Below are positions 2,350 to 19,717 of a stretch of DNA of 27,439 nucleotides, one piece after another; the first letter of the stretch is position 1, and each line of letters begins with the position of its first letter. The notes below the pieces were generated by a model. It had not been told where the DNA came from and did not search any database. It worked only from the letters and a program-made list of their open reading frames with translations. The stretch covers positions 1-27,439 of IMG/VR virus record IMGVR_UViG_3300025138_000269. One strand, 5' to 3'. The position numbers and the translations under genes are program-made. Source of the DNA: a virus.

Positions 2350-4504
2350 TTATTCCTTGTAGTTGTTTGCCAAACATATTAGTAGATTTTGCCGCTTCTT
2401 CAAGTATTTTGTTATCTCCAGCGACCATCATCTTATCTAAGTCTGCATCTGCTTTAATTTTTGCAGTATCAAGTTGTGTATTATATTTCAAAGCCATTTC
2501 TTTTATCTTAGCTTCAAAGTCTAATTGCATTTCTTGAGTTTTTTGTTGTAATTCTTGAGCTTGTAATTCTAGGTCTGCAAGTTTTCGCTTATTCTCAGCA
2601 TCTATTCTAGTAAATTCTATCTTCTCAATAGGAGTTAGTGGTGGTGGTTGAGGTGGTGGCATCATTTGTTTACCAACATCAGGATCTACAAAGTAAGTTT
2701 CTACATTTTTTAGACCTGCATTCTCTACCATCTTAGTCAAAGTGTTATACATATTTTTAAGATTAACCATTGGCATCTCTTTTCCACCCTGTAATTGGAA
2801 TGCTTGTAGTTGTCTTTCTAAAATACTATTTAGCATAATTGTTTGTTGTTCTTTAGAACCAGTTCCAAGACCAACAACTATTGAAATATTAAATCTATCT
2901 TTCCATTCAGTAGGTCTTACAGGAACATACTGATTACTCATCATAATAATTTTTTCTTTGTCTTGGTATTTAACCATTAGTTCAAATATTTTTTTAAATA
3001 AATCTTTAACTCCAGTTTCTGCAAAGACTCTAGCAATCAATTCTGATCTCATTTGAGTTTGTTGCATCAAAGCATTTACACCAGTTGCTGTTTTAGCATT
3101 TAATGTATCAGGACTTAAACCTTGAGCTTCTTTTGAAACACCAGTTCTACCTTCTCTAACTGAATCTAAATAAGATAATAATGGAAAGGCTTGTTGTGAA
3201 ATTGGTTGAGCTTGTAATGGTTGCATCACTTGGTTCGGTGGTTGTTTAGTTCTTACAATTCCACCAGGTCTAGTCGTCAGTAAATCATCCATATTTACCA
3301 TACCATCCATTACTGCAACTCTATTATTATTTGTTAAATACATATTATCTAATAGCTGTCGCATAACAGTAGATTTCATTAACTGAACATCTTCTACTAA
3401 TTCTGCAATTGATCTTCCATAAAATCTATGAGGCATTGGAATAGGAGTGATCGTTACGAAGGGTACACTATCGCAAGGCATATTTGATAATATGTGATTA
3501 CCATCTGAACCAGCTGAAACTATTTTTCTAAGTTCTGCAATACCATCTTCATCGTAATCGTATTTTACATAAGACTCATAAACTAAAACTTTTTCTGTTG
3601 AGGTATCTGTTGCAGATGAAATATTATAATCATCCACATCGGTTAATCTTACATTCTGCTCATCGTTATAAATATCTAAATCTGATTTTGGTAGTTCGTC
3701 AATCTCATCTTGAGGATAACCCATTGCAACTAAATCTGATCTTGTCATTAAAACTTTATGAGAAACAAAATCTGCATCCTCAATTGTTTTAGCACTTCTA
3801 TCAATTAAAAATTCTTCTGGTGGAATACTTTCTATTTTAACTCTACCTGTTTTTTTAATTCTTTTAATTTTGCAATTATATAAATTAAAATCAGGAACTT
3901 GAACTTGGGATATATCCACCCCTTGCATTTCGTATTGTTTTAAAACTTCTTCAAACTTTTCTTTGGCAGACTCATCTTCAAATACTTCTTCTTCAACAGT
4001 TTCTATTTCATCCTTAGTATCTTGCAAAGCCTCTTTCTCAACTATGGATAAATTTTCATAAGTTTCGTAATCTACTTTTTCAGAGTCATCCCAATAAATT
4101 TTTAAGAAACCATTTTTCTCAATCAAAGCATCTTTGAAAAAATTATATAATAATTGAAAGCCATCATTCTCTTTATAAAAAACATGATTTAAATAAGCTG
4201 TCGCTTGTGCTGCCATTGGAACATCTTCTGCTGTCATTGGTTCGCAATGAACAACTTTATCTGATGCTGTAAAAACTCTTAATAAATTTGGTAACAAACT
4301 TTCAATCGTATCTGCAACATCGGTTGATACTACCTGACTACGACCATCTATTTCTGTTCCTAGTTTATCACCTAAATAATATTCTAACGATTTAGTTCTG
4401 GAGTCTGATAACTGACCACCTAGATAACCTAAAGCATTTTGTATTTGACCTGATAATAAACTTTGTAATTCTAAATTTGATATTTCTTTATTTTTTTTTG
4501 CCAT
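2273..4504 (-). CDS. Portal protein
   Basis: 743 residues, the size of podovirus (P22-like/p19-type) portals, which form the dodecameric DNA channel at one capsid vertex. Recognisable features are an N-terminal Asp/Glu-rich region with SLEYYLGDKLGTEIDGRSQVV, the TDVADTIESLLPNLL motif typical of portals of marine podoviruses (about residues 60-75), a long acidic insert at about 150-195, the VPFVTITPIPMPHRFYGRSI core (about 346-365), and a long C-terminal coiled coil with a proline stretch (PPPQPPPLTP, about 617-626) that would be the barrel or crown. It follows the terminase gene by one base with no ribosome site of its own, which suggests translational coupling. Its last 77 nt are shared with the next gene. 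Confidence 0.92.
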   Translation of the reverse strand: MAKKNKEISNLELQSLLSGQIQNALGYLGGQLSDSRTKSLEYYLGDKLGTEIDGRSQVVSTDVADTIESLLPNLLRVFTASDKVVHCEPMTAEDVPMAAQATAYLNHVFYKENDGFQLLYNFFKDALIEKNGFLKIYWDDSEKVDYETYENLSIVEKEALQDTKDEIETVEEEVFEDESAKEKFEEVLKQYEMQGVDISQVQVPDFNLYNCKIKRIKKTGRVKIESIPPEEFLIDRSAKTIEDADFVSHKVLMTRSDLVAMGYPQDEIDELPKSDLDIYNDEQNVRLTDVDDYNISSATDTSTEKVLVYESYVKYDYDEDGIAELRKIVSAGSDGNHILSNMPCDSVPFVTITPIPMPHRFYGRSIAELVEDVQLMKSTVMRQLLDNMYLTNNNRVAVMDGMVNMDDLLTTRPGGIVRTKQPPNQVMQPLQAQPISQQAFPLLSYLDSVREGRTGVSKEAQGLSPDTLNAKTATGVNALMQQTQMRSELIARVFAETGVKDLFKKIFELMVKYQDKEKIIMMSNQYVPVRPTEWKDRFNISIVVGLGTGSKEQQTIMLNSILERQLQAFQLQGGKEMPMVNLKNMYNTLTKMVENAGLKNVETYFVDPDVGKQMMPPPQPPPLTPIEKIEFTRIDAENKRKLADLELQAQELQQKTQEMQLDFEAKIKEMALKYNTQLDTAKIKADADLDKMMVAGDNKILEEAAKSTNMFGKQLQGINGSERPGGQVGGDQPIQRSQADIRE

Positions 4505-4505
4505 A

Positions 4506-5777
4506 TTAAACTATATAATTTGTATCTACTTCTATTGGCTTATCCCAATTCGATGTTTCAAGTGGTTCTGTAACAGCACCATACCTTACCGAATCGCAAA
4601 AGTGTGATGCCCAATTGTGTAGGGGTTTATTCCTAAAACAATTATTTTTTTCATCCCACCGCTTACAATATGATTTTAATGCTTCTACTAGCTTATTGCA
4701 ATTGTTTTTATGAAAAAAACACTTGGGTAACATTCGTCTTACTTGCTCAATACCATCTTCTACACTAAGTTTGGGTGCTATGTCAAATTCTAACCCTAGT
4801 TCTTTAGCGGTTTCCCATCTTGATTTATTTGTACCTATTTCTCTAACTCTAATATCATGCGGAGCTATGTGCTTTGAATAGTTGTAAGGTTTGCTATCTA
4901 TGACATTTATATAATGCTCTAATCCCTCACCTGAGTTTTCGTAGCAATCAATAATTCTAATTTCACCATTTATTCTTCGTTGAGCAAAGGTGATTACTGT
5001 ACTATCGTTCATTCCTAAATCCCACCAGGTTTCAACATCTAAACTTTCGTCTATATCAAAGTTCTTAACATTGCCAGACTTCTCTAACTCCTCAATTATA
5101 GATCCAAAGTAAGAACCACTTATTCCAGCTTGAAATGAGCATTCAAATTCTTGTTCGTAACTTTCAGGCGACATTGTTTGTTTAGCAGCATCTAATTCGT
5201 CTTGAGCTATGATCTTTGTTTCACTAGCTTTAAATACTTTAGTAAACCAATCTTTATTATTTTTAGCTTTCTCATGTAAATCGTAGAACCAGTTTCTTCC
5301 CATCGGAGTTCCGATAAAAATAGCGAAGCCTTTTCTGTCCGATAAACATGGTCTTAAAATGGTATCAAAAAGGTCTGGCGAAAGGTTCTGTGTTTCGTCA
5401 CAAACTATACCATCAAAATACTGACCTCTGATAGCAGCACTATTCTCACCACCTAATATTTGTATTCTTGAATTGTTTATAGAAAAGTCCACCCTTAGTT
5501 CTGACTCATTAAACTTAACTCCTGGAATTGTGGCAGAAAATTGTTTCATATAATCCCAAGCGGTGCTTTTACCTTGCAACCTGTAAGGCGAAATAAAGGC
5601 ATATCTTGGATAAGGTTTATTAGATGTCAGAGCTGCTTTAATAAGGTGGTTTATAGCAAAGACTGTTTTGCCTCCTCTCCTGTGAACGATGACTACATTA
5701 AATCGGTTCTTATCGCATTTTTTATGCAAAAAATTTTGGATTTCTCTTGGTGCGTAAGGAATAACAATTTGTTTCAT
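4506..5777 (-). CDS. terL: Terminase large subunit (packaging ATPase and nuclease)
   Basis: 423 residues with both enzyme domains. The ATPase has a Walker A-type HRRGGKT at about residues 32-38, a Walker B IVCDE at 124-128 followed by TQ, and a coupling motif FIGTPMG at about 154-160. The RNase H-like nuclease has Asp253 in WWDLGMND, Asp277 in RIIDCYE and Asp395 in HFCDSVRYG, matching the three acidic metal ligands of the family. The protein pumps DNA through the portal and cuts it. The G-run (GGGGGG) 12 nt upstream may serve as ribosome site. It is unusual that the small subunit is not directly upstream: a 61-residue gene and a terminator-like non-coding gap separate them. Confidence 0.95.
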   Translation of the reverse strand: MKQIVIPYAPREIQNFLHKKCDKNRFNVVIVHRRGGKTVFAINHLIKAALTSNKPYPRYAFISPYRLQGKSTAWDYMKQFSATIPGVKFNESELRVDFSINNSRIQILGGENSAAIRGQYFDGIVCDETQNLSPDLFDTILRPCLSDRKGFAIFIGTPMGRNWFYDLHEKAKNNKDWFTKVFKASETKIIAQDELDAAKQTMSPESYEQEFECSFQAGISGSYFGSIIEELEKSGNVKNFDIDESLDVETWWDLGMNDSTVITFAQRRINGEIRIIDCYENSGEGLEHYINVIDSKPYNYSKHIAPHDIRVREIGTNKSRWETAKELGLEFDIAPKLSVEDGIEQVRRMLPKCFFHKNNCNKLVEALKSYCKRWDEKNNCFRNKPLHNWASHFCDSVRYGAVTEPLETSNWDKPIEVDTNYIV

Positions 5778-7159: not shown

Positions 7160-7542
7160 TTCTTAAAACCCTTAAACCCTTTCTTCTGAAGTATAGTGTT
7201 ATGAGATATATTATTGTTCTTCTTAATATTAAGTGTTTGGTACTTACCCATATAAGTATTAGATACTCTATCAGGTACTTGTTTAACAGGTAGTCTTAAC
7301 TCATATTTATTGGCTGAGGTTTTTCTGTGGATAACTAAATATCCATCTTTTATAAGCTCATTTTTAGCCTTTTGAAGTGTGGATAAGCACATATCCAATT
7401 TTTTCAATAATGTGGCATTTCTTAATATTCTAAAACTTGGCGATAAATACCTTAAATAGATAAATAATGCTTTTGCTTCCTTGCTAAGACCCTCATCAAT
7501 AATCAATTGATTTGGGATCATTGTAAACCCTTTTTTACTCAT
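7156..7542 (-). CDS. Winged-helix DNA-binding protein, replication-initiator-like
   Basis: 128 residues. The start GFTMIPNQLIIDEGLSKEAK followed by ALFIYLRYLSP is the beginning of the helix-turn-helix_36/RepA-N-like winged-helix domains found in phage and plasmid replication proteins; LDMCLSTLQKAKNEL (about residues 69-83) would be the recognition helix region and DGYLVIHRK the wing. The C-terminus is Lys/Asn-rich. GGAAGG stands 8 nt before the start codon. It is the first gene of the minus-strand block, divergent from the early genes. It could be a replication initiator or a regulator of late transcription; no polymerase or helicase gene is seen in the window, so a host-replisome recruiter is conceivable. 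Confidence 0.6.
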   Translation of the reverse strand: MSKKGFTMIPNQLIIDEGLSKEAKALFIYLRYLSPSFRILRNATLLKKLDMCLSTLQKAKNELIKDGYLVIHRKTSANKYELRLPVKQVPDRVSNTYMGKYQTLNIKKNNNISHNTILQKKGFKGFKK

Positions 7543-7644
7543 ATTATACCTTCCTTTCAGGGTGTTGTTTAATACTTAATCATTTTATAATCAATAAGAA
7601 CATTTAGCGAACATAAATATTTATACAATCTTAGCTTATATAGT

Positions 7645-7672
7645 TTGACATATTATACAAAAGTTGTATAAG
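7645..7672 (+). promoter_or_regulatory. Strong sigma70-type early promoter
   Basis: TTGACA (perfect -35, 7645-7650), a 16-bp spacer and TATAAG (7667-7672, five of six consensus bases). It stands 38 nt before the first early gene, which has its own ribosome site. The arrangement indicates transcription by the host RNA polymerase soon after entry. Confidence 0.75.
7653..7671. promoter_or_regulatory. Operator-like inverted repeat inside the early promoter
   Basis: TTATACAA-AAG-TTGTATAA, two perfect 8-bp arms, lies exactly between the -35 and -10 boxes and overlaps the -10. A repressor dimer bound here would block the promoter. The same half-site occurs at 7621-7628 and 11641-11648, and AAGTTGCATAAG at 14261-14272 differs by one base from AAGTTGTATAAG at 7661-7672. 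The XRE-type protein at 14315-14689 is the obvious candidate to bind it; that link is inference. Confidence 0.6.
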
Positions 7673-7710
7673 TTTAGTATGAAAACAAATCAACAAAGGA
7701 AAGAAACAAA

Positions 7711-7887
7711 ATGAATAATTGTTATGAATGTGGATCAGATATAATTTATCCTAATGATGCTTTTGATGTTATTTCAAAATGCTCTAATAAAGATTGTGAA
7801 ACCAATCAAATTAAAAAAGATCAAATTGATCAAATTAGTCATTTAGAAAATCAAAAAGTTCTAAATGATCAAATGGATAACTCATAA
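7711..7887 (+). CDS. Small zinc-ribbon-like protein, first early gene
   Basis: 58 residues. Cysteines C4-x2-C7 and C24-x4-C29 (CYEC and CSNKDC) can bind one zinc, as in small zinc ribbons; the C-terminal half is helical with a repeated DQIDQI-like pattern. Start: first ATG, preceded by AAAGGA 11 nt upstream, 38 nt after the promoter. Tiny metal-binding proteins expressed first by phages are often host-takeover factors, but no specific function can be read from the sequence. Confidence 0.65.
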   Translation: MNNCYECGSDIIYPNDAFDVISKCSNKDCETNQIKKDQIDQISHLENQKVLNDQMDNS

Positions 7888-7912
7888 ATAAACCAAGAAA
7901 GGAAAACTAAAC

Positions 7913-8485
7913 ATGACTAAAAACTATGCTAATGAAAGATATATACCTAAACATCTTAATACTAAAATAAAAGAAAACGATCATTTTGATTTTTATTATA
8001 ATAATAATGATGAAAAACCAGAATGTATTGCGTTTGCTAAAAAAGCTAAAAACAAATTGTTTTGGTATAGATTTAAAAATGTAGAGCAAATGAATAAGCA
8101 TATTAATAATGCTTTAGAAAATGCTAAGACAAGAGAAGAAGAAAAAGCTAAATATAAAGCTGAAAGACTAAAACCTCACACATTAAAAGTTGGAGATGTT
8201 TTGTATACTTCTTGGGGTTATGACCAAACAAATATTGATTTTTATAAAGTTGTAAAATTAGTTGGCAAAACTTCAGTTAAACTTTGTAAAATGACTAATC
8301 AATATTATGAATCAGATTGTAGAGCAAGTGATAAAGTTGTTCCAGGTGATGTTAAGGAAAATGCAGAACCTTTTTTAAAAAGAGTTAACGGCAAAGATAA
8401 CCATGTTAATATCTCATCTTTTGAATTTGCTAGAGTTTGGGATGGTAAAGCTAAATATCAGACCGCAGCTGGTTTTGGACACTAG
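7913..8485 (+). CDS. Hypothetical early protein with SWGYDQTNIDFY motif
   Basis: 190 residues. The N-terminal half is very basic and helical (a Lys/Glu coiled stretch at about 70-86). The C-terminal half starts with HTLKVGDVLYTSWGYDQTNI at about 88-107, continuing DFYKVVKLVGKTSVKL. I recall this SWGYDQTN(I/V)DFYQV motif in hypothetical proteins of phages and plasmids, with a small beta-barrel-like look; no function is known to me. AAAGGA 10 nt upstream supports the start. Its stop codon supplies the first base of the hammerhead ribozyme that follows, so its mRNA 3' end is probably made by self-cleavage. Confidence 0.8.
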   Translation: MTKNYANERYIPKHLNTKIKENDHFDFYYNNNDEKPECIAFAKKAKNKLFWYRFKNVEQMNKHINNALENAKTREEEKAKYKAERLKPHTLKVGDVLYTSWGYDQTNIDFYKVVKLVGKTSVKLCKMTNQYYESDCRASDKVVPGDVKENAEPFLKRVNGKDNHVNISSFEFARVWDGKAKYQTAAGFGH

Positions 8486-8539
8486 ACCGAAACACCCCCA
8501 CAAGGGGTGTCTTAGGGTTAATCCCTAACTGATGAGGTC
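8485..8539 (+). ncRNA. Type II hammerhead self-cleaving ribozyme
   Basis: All parts of the hammerhead can be read in type II order (open end at stem II). Stem II 5' part GACC (8485-8488); core GAA (8489-8491); stem III ACACCCC (8492-8498), loop CACAA, GGGGUGU (8504-8510), a perfect 7-bp helix starting with the required A15.1-U16.1 pair; cleavage-site C17 (8511); stem I UUAGGG (8512-8517), loop UUAAU, CCCUAA (8523-8528); core CUGAUGA (8529-8535); stem II GGUC (8536-8539) pairing with GACC. Every conserved core base is present. Predicted cut is between 8511 and 8512. It lies between two co-directional early genes and so should cut their shared mRNA, leaving a hairpin at each new end. Stem II has only 4 bp; loop-loop contacts cannot be judged by eye. 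Confidence 0.93.
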
Positions 8540-8561
8540 AGAAACTAAAATAGGGAGTATT

Positions 8562-8738
8562 ATGAAAGCTAAAGACTATAAATCAATAACAAACATCTTA
8601 GAGTCTAAAAACAAAGATAAGCAATTTTTTACCTTTATGGACTTTGAAGATACTGAGATTAGGAAAAAGAAAGTAATTTTGCCTTTACCTAAACAATACT
8701 TTAATAATATAGTTAAACTAATAAAGGGGGAGAAATGA
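8562..8738 (+). CDS. Small hypothetical early protein after the ribozyme
   Basis: 58 residues, basic, no cysteines; contains FFTFMDFEDTEIRKKKVILP at about 23-42. An ATG ten codons upstream (8532) lies inside the ribozyme core CUGAUGA and has no ribosome site. The ATG at 8562 follows GGGAG by 5 nt and is the better start. After ribozyme cleavage this would be the first gene of the downstream mRNA, with a leader of about 50 nt that begins with the stem I hairpin. Function unknown. Confidence 0.65.
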   Translation: MKAKDYKSITNILESKNKDKQFFTFMDFEDTEIRKKKVILPLPKQYFNNIVKLIKGEK

Positions 8739-8968
8739 AACCAAAAGTACCTAATGAAGAATTTAGAAAGTTTTTAAAAAAACTCATAATTGCATATAAA
8801 AGTTTTGATGATGCAAGACAATTTTTAAATGATTTAGAACTTGAATATGAATTTGATAGTTTTATAAATTCTGAGCAAATAGATGAATGCCAAACTTTAA
8901 TTGAAAAAGGTTTAGGTTGGGAAATATTATTAACACCAGAAAGAGTAAATTTAAATGACAAGAAATAA
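8735..8968 (+). CDS. Small hypothetical early protein
   Basis: 77 residues, overlapping the previous stop by 4 nt and preceded by a strong GGGGGAG ribosome site. Basic helical N-terminus (EEFRKFLKKLIIAYKSFDDA) and acidic middle (LNDLELEYEFDSFINSEQID), giving a strongly two-sided charge pattern. No known motif. Part of the run of small coupled early genes. Confidence 0.65.
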   Translation: MKPKVPNEEFRKFLKKLIIAYKSFDDARQFLNDLELEYEFDSFINSEQIDECQTLIEKGLGWEILLTPERVNLNDKK

Positions 8969-9143
8969 ATTTGGATTGCCTTTAGTCTATGATTTTAATA
9001 TAGCTTTAAGGGATAAAAGGAGATTAAGGAACTTAGAATATATGAAATGGAACTGTCCTAAAGGTTGGAAAGAGCTTTGGAGCAAGAAACTAGACCAATT
9101 AAAAAAGAATATAAGTGAAAGAAAAAGACAAACCCTTAACTAA
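8955..9143 (+). CDS. Small basic hypothetical early protein
   Basis: 62 residues, many Arg and Lys, with WNCPKGWKELWSKKLDQLKK at about 32-51. The start overlaps the end of the previous gene by 14 nt, and there is no strong ribosome site, so coupling is likely. Its tail overlaps a GTG-started 56-codon frame. Family not recognised. Confidence 0.55.
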   Translation: MTRNKFGLPLVYDFNIALRDKRRLRNLEYMKWNCPKGWKELWSKKLDQLKKNISERKRQTLN

Positions 9144-9692: not shown

Positions 9693-10167
9693 CGAAGTAG
9701 AACTAGCCTTAAATATTGCTGCCAAAAGATATATTGGCAATTTAAAAATGGGTAAAACCTTTTCTTATGGTTACACCAAAGGAATTAAATCACAACTAAC
9801 AGATGGCATCTTAGGAGCTTTAGGAGAGGTTGCTTATGCAAAGGCAACTAATAGCTTTTATAATGGTTCTTATAGTGATGATAACCAATTCTATTCAGAC
9901 TCAGACTTTCAAAACAATATAGAGATAAGAACCCAAGAAAAGAAATCATATAATTTTTTATTAATAAGACCTGGAGAAAAGAAAGGTACTTATATATTAA
10001 TCATTAAAGACAACAACGAAGATTTTAAATTTACTATTATGGGTTCATTTATTTATAATGATGATCTACCACCAGAAAAGCTATCAAATTTTGGCTACCA
10101 AGATAGACCAGCTGCATATAAAATTGAATTAAAAGAACTTAAACCAATGGAGGAAGATGATAGATAA
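9667..10167 (+). CDS. Probable PD-(D/E)XK-type nuclease
   Basis: 166 residues. GILGALGEVAYAKATNSFY (about 47-65) gives the helix with a conserved Glu, DSDFQNN (about 77-83) an Asp, and IEIRTQEKKSYNFLLIRPGE (about 84-103) the following strand with an E-x-R/K-like site. This 'GxxGExAfAk ... D ... iEVRt' pattern is that of small phage and host proteins annotated as endonuclease or nuclease-like. The order agrees with a restriction-endonuclease fold, but the catalytic lysine is replaced by Arg (EIR), so activity is uncertain. It overlaps the PP-loop gene by 11 nt, indicating one functional cassette. Confidence 0.55.
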   Translation: MIKIKLEPNEVELALNIAAKRYIGNLKMGKTFSYGYTKGIKSQLTDGILGALGEVAYAKATNSFYNGSYSDDNQFYSDSDFQNNIEIRTQEKKSYNFLLIRPGEKKGTYILIIKDNNEDFKFTIMGSFIYNDDLPPEKLSNFGYQDRPAAYKIELKELKPMEEDDR

Positions 10168-10975
10168 AAATAGATCAAGACAAATGGTTGTTTTAAGTTT
10201 AGGTGTTGGTGTTCAATCAACAACTATGGCTATAATGGCTGCTAAAGGTGATTTGCCACCAGTTGATTGTGCAATATTTGCTGATCCTGGTTATGAAAGC
10301 AAAGCTACTATGACTTATTTAAATTACTTAACAACTATTTTACCTTATCCAGTATTTAGAGTTCAAAAAGGAAATATTAAAGATGATATGTTAGCTGCAA
10401 AAGGTACTACTAATTTCGTAGTAGCTCCTTTTTATAATCAACATACTATCACAGGTAAAAAGGGTATGATTCGTAGGCAATGTACTTCAGAATATAAAAT
10501 TTTAGTAATTAAAAAAAAAATAAGAGAATTATGTGGTGTTAAACCAGGTAAACATTTTCCAAAAGATAAATATGTTGAGCAATGGATAGGCATTTCTAAA
10601 GATGAAATACAAAGAATGAAACCTGCTAGAGATCCTTACATTTTAAATAGACATCCTTTAATTGAAGCTAATATGTCAAGGCAAGATTGTATTAATTATC
10701 TTAAAAAAAATAACATAATACCACCAGAGAAATCAGCTTGTCTTTGTTGTCCATTCCATGACGATAAATATTGGCATGATTTAAAAACAAATAAACCAGA
10801 TGAATTTAAAGATGTAGTTGAGTTTGATAAAAAAATTAGAGATATAAGTAAAGATCCCAATATGAAAAATTATACACATAGATCATGTAAACCTTTAGAT
10901 GAGGTAGAATTTAATAAAGAAGATAATCAATTAGATATGTTCAATAATGAATGTGACGGAATTTGTGGGATTTAA
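10157..10975 (+). CDS. PP-loop ATP pyrophosphatase, PAPS-reductase-like
   Basis: 272 residues. SLGVGVQST at 14-22 is the PP-loop that binds ATP's diphosphate, followed by DCAIFADPGYESKATMTYLN (about 37-56), a hallmark of phage PAPS-reductase-family proteins. Further conserved parts are RRQCTSEYKI (about 109-118), ACLCCPFH (about 194-201) and a C-terminal CDGICG. Cys113, the CLCC cluster and the C-terminal pair could bind a metal or carry sulfur. True PAPS reductase works in sulfate assimilation; phage relatives may adenylate other substrates, including nucleic acids. GGAGGA directly precedes the start. The oxygenase gene follows at once. Confidence 0.85.
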   Translation: MIDKNRSRQMVVLSLGVGVQSTTMAIMAAKGDLPPVDCAIFADPGYESKATMTYLNYLTTILPYPVFRVQKGNIKDDMLAAKGTTNFVVAPFYNQHTITGKKGMIRRQCTSEYKILVIKKKIRELCGVKPGKHFPKDKYVEQWIGISKDEIQRMKPARDPYILNRHPLIEANMSRQDCINYLKKNNIIPPEKSACLCCPFHDDKYWHDLKTNKPDEFKDVVEFDKKIRDISKDPNMKNYTHRSCKPLDEVEFNKEDNQLDMFNNECDGICGI

Positions 10976-10976
10976 T

Positions 10977-11633
10977 ATGAGTGATAAAATAAATTTTAAA
11001 TTATTTAAACCTTTTGGTTCAACAGTTGCTAAAGCAGTTATGCCATTAGGATTAATGAAAGATTTTCAAGATGATTTAAAACAAATAAGACAAGATAAAG
11101 AAAAACAAAAGAACCATGATTGGTCTAAAAAATTGGTCGGTCATGTAGATTCAGAGTATCTAATTTCACCAGAGATTATGCTTAAATGGAAACAAAAATT
11201 CTTTGATCCTATTATTAATACTTATGTCAAAAATCACATAGAACATAAAATTAAATCTATTTTAATTAATTCTGCTTGGTATGTAATATCAAAACCTGGA
11301 GATTATAACCCTTGCCATACCCATACTGAATATGTTCATGGTAATTATCATTTAAGCTGCGTTGGTTATTTGCAAATACCTAAAATGATTTCAACAGATA
11401 ATGCTAAAGAACATAATGATTTTTCAGGTCAGACAGAATTTATAGAAGGATCTGAAAGTATGTTTAATAATAATTCTTATAGAGTTATGCCAGAGGTTAG
11501 GGATTGGATATTGTTCCCAAATTCACTATCTCATGTAGTCTATCCATTTAATACAGATGATAAAGATAACGAAAGAATCTCATTTAGTTTTAATGCAACT
11601 ATAATATTTGATAATGATAAACTCTCAAATTGA
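10977..11633 (+). CDS. 2-oxoglutarate/Fe(II)-dependent oxygenase-like protein
   Basis: 218 residues from the ATG just after the previous stop (an ATG 30 nt earlier would overlap that gene). PGDYNPCHTHTEYVHGNYHL, with His114 and His116, followed by SCVGYLQIP; then WILFPNSLSHVVYPF with His186, and NERISFSFN with Arg200, match the double-stranded beta-helix of 2OG-Fe(II) oxygenases: a His pair, a distal His and the Arg that holds 2-oxoglutarate. Such phage proteins may hydroxylate proteins or modify nucleic acids. The likely target is unknown. It closes the nuclease/PP-loop/oxygenase cassette and is followed by a new control region. Confidence 0.8.
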   Translation: MSDKINFKLFKPFGSTVAKAVMPLGLMKDFQDDLKQIRQDKEKQKNHDWSKKLVGHVDSEYLISPEIMLKWKQKFFDPIINTYVKNHIEHKIKSILINSAWYVISKPGDYNPCHTHTEYVHGNYHLSCVGYLQIPKMISTDNAKEHNDFSGQTEFIEGSESMFNNNSYRVMPEVRDWILFPNSLSHVVYPFNTDDKDNERISFSFNATIIFDNDKLSN

Positions 11634-11939: not shown

Positions 11940-12223
11940 CAGATACTGTAATGATGGAACTTGCAAAGATGCAAACTAAAATTAGAACTTATGAGAATAA
12001 TGAAAAGAAACATATTGAGCAATTACATTTAAGGGATGATGAAATATCAAGACTTAACAAAGAGTTAGATTTATTAAAGTTAAAAGATCAAATGATTGCT
12101 AAGAACCAAAGCTATTTAGAAGCTAAAGCACAGAAAGATGTAGATCAAATTAAAGAAAACCAAAAGATACAAATGAAAGGAAAAAATGAAACTAAAGCCA
12201 CAGACGACAGAAGAAAAAAGTAA
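11936..12223 (+). CDS. Coiled-coil protein
   Basis: 95 residues, almost entirely charged heptads (about 5-80: NEKKHIEQLHLRDDEISRLN and following LLKLKDQ), with a Lys-rich tail. The start overlaps the previous stop by 4 nt (ATGA) and its end overlaps the annealing-protein gene by 38 nt, so it belongs to the recombination operon. Its role is unknown; such proteins often mediate oligomer contacts. Confidence 0.6.
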   Translation: MTDTVMMELAKMQTKIRTYENNEKKHIEQLHLRDDEISRLNKELDLLKLKDQMIAKNQSYLEAKAQKDVDQIKENQKIQMKGKNETKATDDRRKK

Positions 12224-12779
12224 GGGAGGGTTTAAAGAAAGACGAAAGGAGTGTTTAACAAGTGCTAAGAATATTCCAACTGTTGATATTAAAGGTAAAA
12301 AATATTCTACAGTTAATGAAAGACACAGACACCTTTTGCAATACTTTCCTGAAGCTAGATTTAATGAAGAAATACTATTCCATGATAATGACAGAGTTGT
12401 CGTTAAAACCGAACTATATATTTCTGATACTATTTATGCTGTTGGTCATGCAGAAGAACATAGAAATGCTAACTTTATAAATAAAACAAGTGCTATGGAG
12501 AACTGTAGTTCTAGTTCTTTAGGAAGATGTTTAGCAGCCTTTGGTCTATCAGGAACTGAATATGCTAGTGCAGAAGAATTAGTAAATGCCTTAAACAATC
12601 AAAAGGGATCTACTCAACAAGTTTCAATTAAAGATACAATTAAAAAGCAAACAACAGAAACCAAGTTGACAGCTTTGTATTCCGATTGGAAGAAACAAAA
12701 TGATTCAATAGAAAAAGACTTTGAATCACAACAACAATCTATCAAACAAAATGGAGGACAAAATGTCAGACAATGGTAG
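12186..12779 (+). CDS. Single-strand annealing protein, ERF/Rad52-like
   Basis: 197 residues. The core has PTVDIKGKKYSTVNERHRHL at about 31-50, FHDNDRVVVKTELYISDTIY at about 65-84, a GHAEEHR motif at about 87-93 and TSAMENCSSSSLGRCLAAFG at about 101-120, followed by LSGTEYASAEEL. This beta-sheet plus 'T.A.ENCeTSAiGRALAafG' helix pattern is typical of phage ERF-type annealing proteins, which coat single-stranded DNA and promote strand annealing. The C-terminal third is Gln/Lys-rich and looks disordered. It is followed by the SSB-like gene, and an exonuclease is further on, a standard exonuclease/annealase/SSB trio. An AAAGGA stands 7 nt before ATG. Confidence 0.75.
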   Translation: MKLKPQTTEEKSKGGFKERRKECLTSAKNIPTVDIKGKKYSTVNERHRHLLQYFPEARFNEEILFHDNDRVVVKTELYISDTIYAVGHAEEHRNANFINKTSAMENCSSSSLGRCLAAFGLSGTEYASAEELVNALNNQKGSTQQVSIKDTIKKQTTETKLTALYSDWKKQNDSIEKDFESQQQSIKQNGGQNVRQW

Positions 12780-19595: not shown

Positions 19596-19717
19596 TTTTT
19601 ATCCTTACAAGTACAGATAGAACACTTACATTTTTTGTTAGGTTTAAAAGTTTTATGTATCCATTCAAAGACACAATCTATTGCACCAAACAAACTAAAA
19701 AAAAACTTATCAATCAT
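19592..19717 (-). CDS. 41-residue Cys-rich membrane-associating protein
   Basis: MIDKFFFSLFGAIDCVFEWI forms an amphipathic/hydrophobic start and the tail carries CKCSICTCKDKK, four Cys within eight residues, which could bind a metal or become lipidated. The start overlaps the end of the resolvase-like gene by 8 nt, and the stop overlaps the next start by ATGA. Function unknown. Confidence 0.55.
   Translation of the reverse strand: MIDKFFFSLFGAIDCVFEWIHKTFKPNKKCKCSICTCKDKK

Follow-up and report, generated by a model that had tools for sequence, protein, structure and literature searches.

A type II hammerhead ribozyme motif starting on a stop codon in a pelagiphage-like genome: a likely mRNA processing site and a probable seam of gene exchange

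Between two co-directional genes of a pelagiphage-like genome, a complete type II hammerhead ribozyme motif starts on the last base of the upstream stop codon, and its helices covary among related viral contigs. The window, meaning the whole stretch of 27,439 nucleotides that was analysed, is the entire virus record IMGVR_UViG_3300025138_000269 (positions 1–27,439), and the motif lies on the plus strand at 8485–8539, as found by sequence, cmscan, folding, covariation and shuffled controls. We consider it likely that the element acts as an intergenic processing site for mRNA while also providing a short stretch of homology for the exchange of early genes.

Read 5′ to 3′, the motif opens with one strand of stem II (GACC, 8485–8488), which pairs with GGTC at 8536–8539 and is followed by the GAA core segment (8489–8491). 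Stem-loop III (8492–8510) is built from seven base pairs between ACACCCC (8492–8498) and GGGGTGT (8504–8510) with the loop CACAA, and leads to C17 (8511) and stem-loop I (8512–8528), in which TTAGGG (8512–8517) and CCCTAA (8523–8528) form six base pairs around the loop UUAAU. The catalytic core strand CUGAUGA occupies 8529–8535. An earlier, sequence-only reading of this DNA had described all core bases as correct, with stems II, III and I of 4, 7 and 6 bp, and had placed the cut between 8511 and 8512; both descriptions stand, the predicted cleavage site following C17 by the hammerhead consensus, 26 nt 3′ of the stop codon. The features expected of the type are present, namely the CUGANGA core, GAA, A15.1–U16.1 and an H17 other than G, with loops capping stems I and III and stem II left open. 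The end at 8539 was set too early, as a conserved 3′ tail, AGAAACTAAAA (8540–8550), extends the unit to about 8550. Self-cleavage of this RNA is predicted from its sequence.

When the window was compared with all 4227 Rfam families, Hammerhead_II (RF02276) was matched at 8485–8550 with 33.0 bits and an E-value of 0.0033. The match that had been proposed as a check was thus obtained, at a score below the curated gathering cut-off of 37 bits, and the motif is best described, by its sequence, as a hammerhead that has the type II architecture but falls outside the curated limits of RF02276. A mir-9 match at 19627–19701 was set aside as chance. A descriptor demanding stems of at least 4, 6 and 5 bp matched a single site in the window and had no match on either strand of 400 dinucleotide-shuffled windows, which agrees with the earlier view that a chance origin is unlikely; a looser descriptor (2, 4 and 3 bp) gave 5 sites across all 400 shuffled windows. 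No second hammerhead occurs in the 27.4-kb record. The minimum free energy fold of the 66-nt unit reproduces the hammerhead exactly (−23.1 kcal/mol, z −2.63); in a 201-nt context stems I and III are kept, while stem II is lost to an alternative hairpin and an upstream pairing, both considered below.

The structure is conserved beyond this genome. Related viral contigs were collected by a search with the upstream protein, and in L003–L010 the ribozyme is kept directly after the TAG, at the same place and with altered stems; L003 was not caught by the first descriptor, its hammerhead being evident in the sequence. Every clade member starts on a TAG. In an alignment of 19 distinct units scored on the hammerhead structure, 98.8% of cells are paired, a value that drops to 33–56% when the structure is slid along the alignment. 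Changes on both sides affect 10 of 17 pairs, and 40 double-change cells were counted against 10.4 ± 2.8 in shuffled alignments, none of 500 shuffles reaching 40. Both-side changes are found in 5 of the 7 pairs of stem III and in 4 of the 6 pairs of stem I, where every cell is paired, and stem II is paired throughout the 19 sequences with a compensatory change in one of its four pairs. Since all three helices are compensated, the objection foreseen in the sequence-only reading, that the stems might fail to covary in related phages, falls away. The core strand is invariant in the alignment, as is AGAAAC in the tail, while the downstream gene varies. Relatives of the upstream gene (L011–L017, 44–77% identity), in which the neighbour is a convergent open reading frame (ORF) ending at the same place, are without the ribozyme; the hairpin-like DNA found 3′ of the gene there is the end of that convergent ORF and not a decayed hammerhead. 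None of nine cultured related phages tested, Pelagibacter phage HTVC106P and eight others, carries the ribozyme, and nothing matched when the unit was compared by BLAST with 50,697 annotated phages.

The terminase TerL of the window is 88% identical to that of HTVC106P, and the DNA from 8719 onward matches that phage at about 80% over one third of the query, which identifies a pelagiphage-like genome and bears out the claim of a small marine phage. The "early operon" in which the ribozyme had been placed is seen as a co-directional gene cluster, "early" being deduced from gene content. The upstream gene (7913–8485, phrog_37844) ends with the TAG at 8483–8485, whose G is the first ribozyme base, and encodes a 190-aa protein with an invariant WGYDQTNI and a C-terminal GxGH. 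Its AlphaFold model has a pLDDT of 91; a PDB fold search gave no match at E ≤ 0.001, nor did Pfam and NCBIfam searches. Together with its relatives (L003–L082) it forms a widespread phage family, with an invariant GH immediately before the stop. The downstream gene (8562–8738), preceded by a Shine-Dalgarno-like AGGGAG (8552–8557), encodes 58 aa and has no assigned function. The same early cluster holds a PAPS-reductase-like gene (10157–10975) and a 2OG-Fe(II) oxygenase gene (10947–11633). No intrinsic terminator, sought as a GC hairpin followed by a T run, is found in 7500–9000. HTVC106P, which is syntenic just downstream, encodes a 41-aa ArfA ribosome-rescue factor (1427–1552; Pfam 29.5 against a cut-off of 25.5), and a link with ribosome rescue would have suited mRNA cutting; this was rejected, because neither the window nor the other loci examined hold an ArfA homologue and the cut is located 3′ of the stop.

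The surroundings of the ribozyme differ far more than the ribozyme itself. Across 36 near-identical units of the AGAAAC-tail family, the upstream genes fall into 12 protein families and the downstream genes into 18. The 65-nt unit of the window recurs identically in L186, with a related downstream gene and an unrelated upstream one, and in L005–L007, with a related upstream gene and a different downstream one; where a contig has no ribozyme at this position, other genes stand immediately before the 58-aa gene. Near-identical units joining unrelated gene pairs indicate a recombination seam, and the ribozyme probably marks seams of phage gene swapping. The same cluster encodes, at 12186–12779 (phrog_11717, listed without a function and unnamed by Pfam and NCBIfam), a product whose model, with a mean pLDDT of only 65 and about 85 in its core, matches the folds of yeast Mgm101 (E 9e-5), human RAD52 (1e-3) and phage Sak (8e-3) in the PDB fold search. 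The product thus appears to be a Rad52/Mgm101-like single-strand annealing protein, of a kind suited to short-homology recombination, and is a candidate recombinase at the ribozyme seams. These observations could also be taken to mean that the seam is primary, the element being a shared sequence of about 65 nt or a travelling cassette in which cutting matters little or nothing. We regard this as unlikely, although both roles may coexist: a seam needs a conserved sequence only, whereas here stems I and III are compensated while the core is fixed, so that pairing is what has been conserved, which points to catalysis.

Placement at a stop codon extends well beyond the window. Hammerheads were collected by descriptor scans of IMG/VR (types II, I and III) and of GTDB genomes (type II), with stems rebuilt in Python and copies with a similar upstream 150 nt removed. 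Gene calls relied on ORF length and homology in place of a gene caller, with a greedy longest-ORF map; the descriptors fixed several bases and related contigs are not independent of one another, so the frequencies apply to the sample listed. Among the matches listed, a stop codon ends between −20 and +6 nt from the ribozyme 5′ terminus in 79% of the type II hammerheads (n = 242), in 84% of those of type I (n = 153) and in only 1 of 16 of type III; for the −4 to +6 bin, the value at random positions on the same strand is about 4%. Where the upstream ORF is backed by diverged homologues with aligned C-termini, the stop lies 2–10 nt before G12 in 66 of 78 type II cases among those listed, and a distance of 0–10 nt from G12 is seen in 82% of bacterial genome contigs and 88% of viral contigs, again among the matches listed. 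On the 3′ side, the listed matches show a median of 24 nt from the ribozyme end to the ATG, with the next gene co-directional in 270 of 305. A start at the stop codon is therefore a general rule for types I and II. Genome compaction alone could press an element against a stop; that type III differs speaks against this, its sample of 16 being small. Type I arrays were observed in the phage contigs L201, L202, L205, L210, L211, L221 and L225, and across the type I set the upstream stop frequently borders the catalytic core or falls within it (C-UGA-UGA).

A second recurrent feature concerns the RNA left after cutting. The 3′ cleavage product is predicted to pair its core strand with its tail (CUGAU-GAG-GUCAG, 8529–8541) beside the stem I hairpin, a pairing that excludes the active core and is likewise predicted for the 3′ products of L003 and L010. 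Among the type II matches listed, the base opposite core position 7 is A with U7 in 37, G with U7 (a wobble) in 13, G with C7 in 10 and A with C7 in none (Fisher p 1.5e-5, uncorrected for kinship). Of the short-loop class tails among matches listed, 20% form hairpins of at least 5 bp, against 4% when tails are shuffled and 10% when they are exchanged between ribozymes. The anti-core hairpin, predicted and covarying in a subset, thus belongs to a minority of type II hammerheads, and type I tails give no signal of it. After the cut the two pieces would be held by the 4-bp stem II only, and as the new hairpin would break stem II, it may represent a product-release step. The upstream pairing that would complete an off state in the 201-nt fold is absent from the sequences of relatives and was set aside.

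A regulated switch gated by termination would combine these two features. The ribosome completing the upstream gene would cover stem II and GAA, so that cutting would depend on translation of that gene, the anti-core hairpin would be the off state, and the ratio of joined to cut mRNA would be controlled. The geometry is suggestive, as the stop overlaps stem II in the window and lies 2–6 nt before G12 in 71% of the 134-member type II set among matches listed, and the anti-core hairpin is enriched and covaries with core base 7. In type I, 34 of 181 listed matches have a TAA directly before C3, a count inflated by a pattern that fixed AA before the core, and in 37 of 181 the stop is the UGA of the core itself. 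Such a switch nevertheless seems quite improbable: adjacency to the stop may be compaction, the hairpin is confined to the type II minority just described, and the pairing that completes the off state is missing in relatives. A wider proposal is advanced only tentatively and as a whole is rather unlikely. In it, type I and type II phage hammerheads would owe their position on the stop codon to control by the ribosome, a tail covarying with the core would, in a subset, capture the core strand and eject the upstream mRNA, and the units would be shuffling seams; under ribosome control no core would form while the ribosome stands at the stop, and cutting would come after its release.

The processing role that we favour would proceed as follows. 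The early genes would be transcribed as one RNA, in which the segment immediately 3′ of the 190-aa gene's stop would fold as a hammerhead after the ribosome has left that stop, and would undergo self-cleavage between 8511 and 8512. This would give the upstream mRNA an end 26 nt past the stop, in the stem III hairpin, with a 2′,3′-cyclic phosphate, and the downstream mRNA would begin with a 5′-OH and the stem I hairpin, 50 nt ahead of the ATG. Pairing of the core strand with the tail would break stem II and separate the products, and the same ribozyme sequence would serve as a short homology for exchanging early genes. In this route we infer cutting in vivo, the wait for the ribosome, protection of the ends by the hairpins and product release.

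In phage T7, host RNase III cuts double-stranded hairpins between early genes. The proposed outcome is shared, in that an early polycistronic phage mRNA yields hairpin-ended pieces, but the likeness is one of functional analogy only, and here the RNA would cut itself, leaving a 5′-OH and a 2′,3′-cyclic phosphate. Closer relatives were described by Perreault et al. (2011), who reported hammerhead arrays between prophage genes, with cutting in E. coli as well as in vitro, and who suggested that phage hammerheads split long transcripts into single-gene mRNAs (PMC3088659); the idea of intergenic processing in general is thus not new. The same work reported that natural type II hammerheads match types I and III in frequency among bacteria, so the order is not rare, contrary to what had been stated for this motif (PMC3088659). 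The window shares with RF02276 and the prophage arrays the core, A15.1–U16.1, the cut after H17 and an open stem II, and with the arrays the position between co-directional phage genes, array copies being present in contigs related to the window; it differs in a 5-nt loop I (UNANK), a 4-bp stem II and the lack of a pseudoknot. The hammerhead of haloviruses HF1 and HF2 also belongs to an early region and closely precedes a gene start, with the 5′ end of the early transcript in vivo within 3 nt of the cut, but it has a variant core and stands 13 nt ahead of the transcript's first gene, not between genes at a stop (PMC3088659). Theta ribozymes are likewise self-cutting phage RNAs placed exactly at a gene end, proposed to replace host RNases, but they have an HDV-like fold and act at tRNA 3′ ends in gut phages (PMC10879173).

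The differences from the published family define a compact class. With a pseudoknot scored as at least 4 bp joining loop I to the tail that follows stem II, the type II matches listed divide by loop I: 79–95% of those with loops of at least 7 nt can form one, against 15% of those with 3–6 nt. In the short-loop set of 150 listed matches, stem-loop I consists of 6 bp, 5 nt and 6 bp, the loop follows the consensus UNANK (U-N-A-N-G/U), and stem II is exactly 4 bp in 142. The window ribozyme, with its loop UUAAU, belongs to this class; its loop and the tail AGAAACUAAAA can form at most 3 bp by inspection. Membership of the pseudoknot class of type II hammerheads (PMC3088659) was considered and rejected for this sub-family, in which the contact between loop I and tail is absent, and the speed of cutting at low Mg is therefore uncertain. 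On 26 contigs with a match to the window sub-family, the Rfam model gave scores of 26–33 bits, all below 37, which leaves this phage sub-family unannotated.

That the motif is a chance or decayed and inactive one is very improbable, since its low Rfam score and absent pseudoknot stand against none of 400 shuffles, covariation and the same position in L003–L010. In viroids and retrozymes, hammerhead cutting followed by ligation gives circular RNA, and a comparable circular or spliced product is equally hard to credit here, as a single ribozyme in the 27.4-kb record leaves no unit between two. Such products were sought from phage arrays by Perreault et al., who found none (PMC3088659).

A 2017 review treated the role of prokaryotic and phage hammerheads as an open question (PMC6155905). 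The literature searched, mostly open-access main texts, contained no mention of the stop-codon rule, of the three-way evidence for seams, of the covariation of the anti-core hairpin or of the compact class below the Rfam threshold, and stop-codon placement ("stop codon" occurs 0 times), gene-shuffling seams and an anti-core tail are absent from the main text of PMC3088659. A positional rule for types I and II, which does not appear in the small sample of type III, together with the anti-core tail and the seam brings the role of the hammerhead within reach of specific experiments. The related HTVC106P-like phages infect Candidatus Pelagibacter, an ecologically important host group. Outside this group, pairs of type II descriptor matches about 350–370 nt apart recur in contigs of Gastranaerophilales and related gut bacteria (L491, L492, L495, L501, L505, L512, L513, L524 and L557), possibly a conserved two-ribozyme cassette around one gene, and the viral contig L177 holds a tRNA cluster and type II hammerheads in one locus (4315–5339 and 8770–8833).
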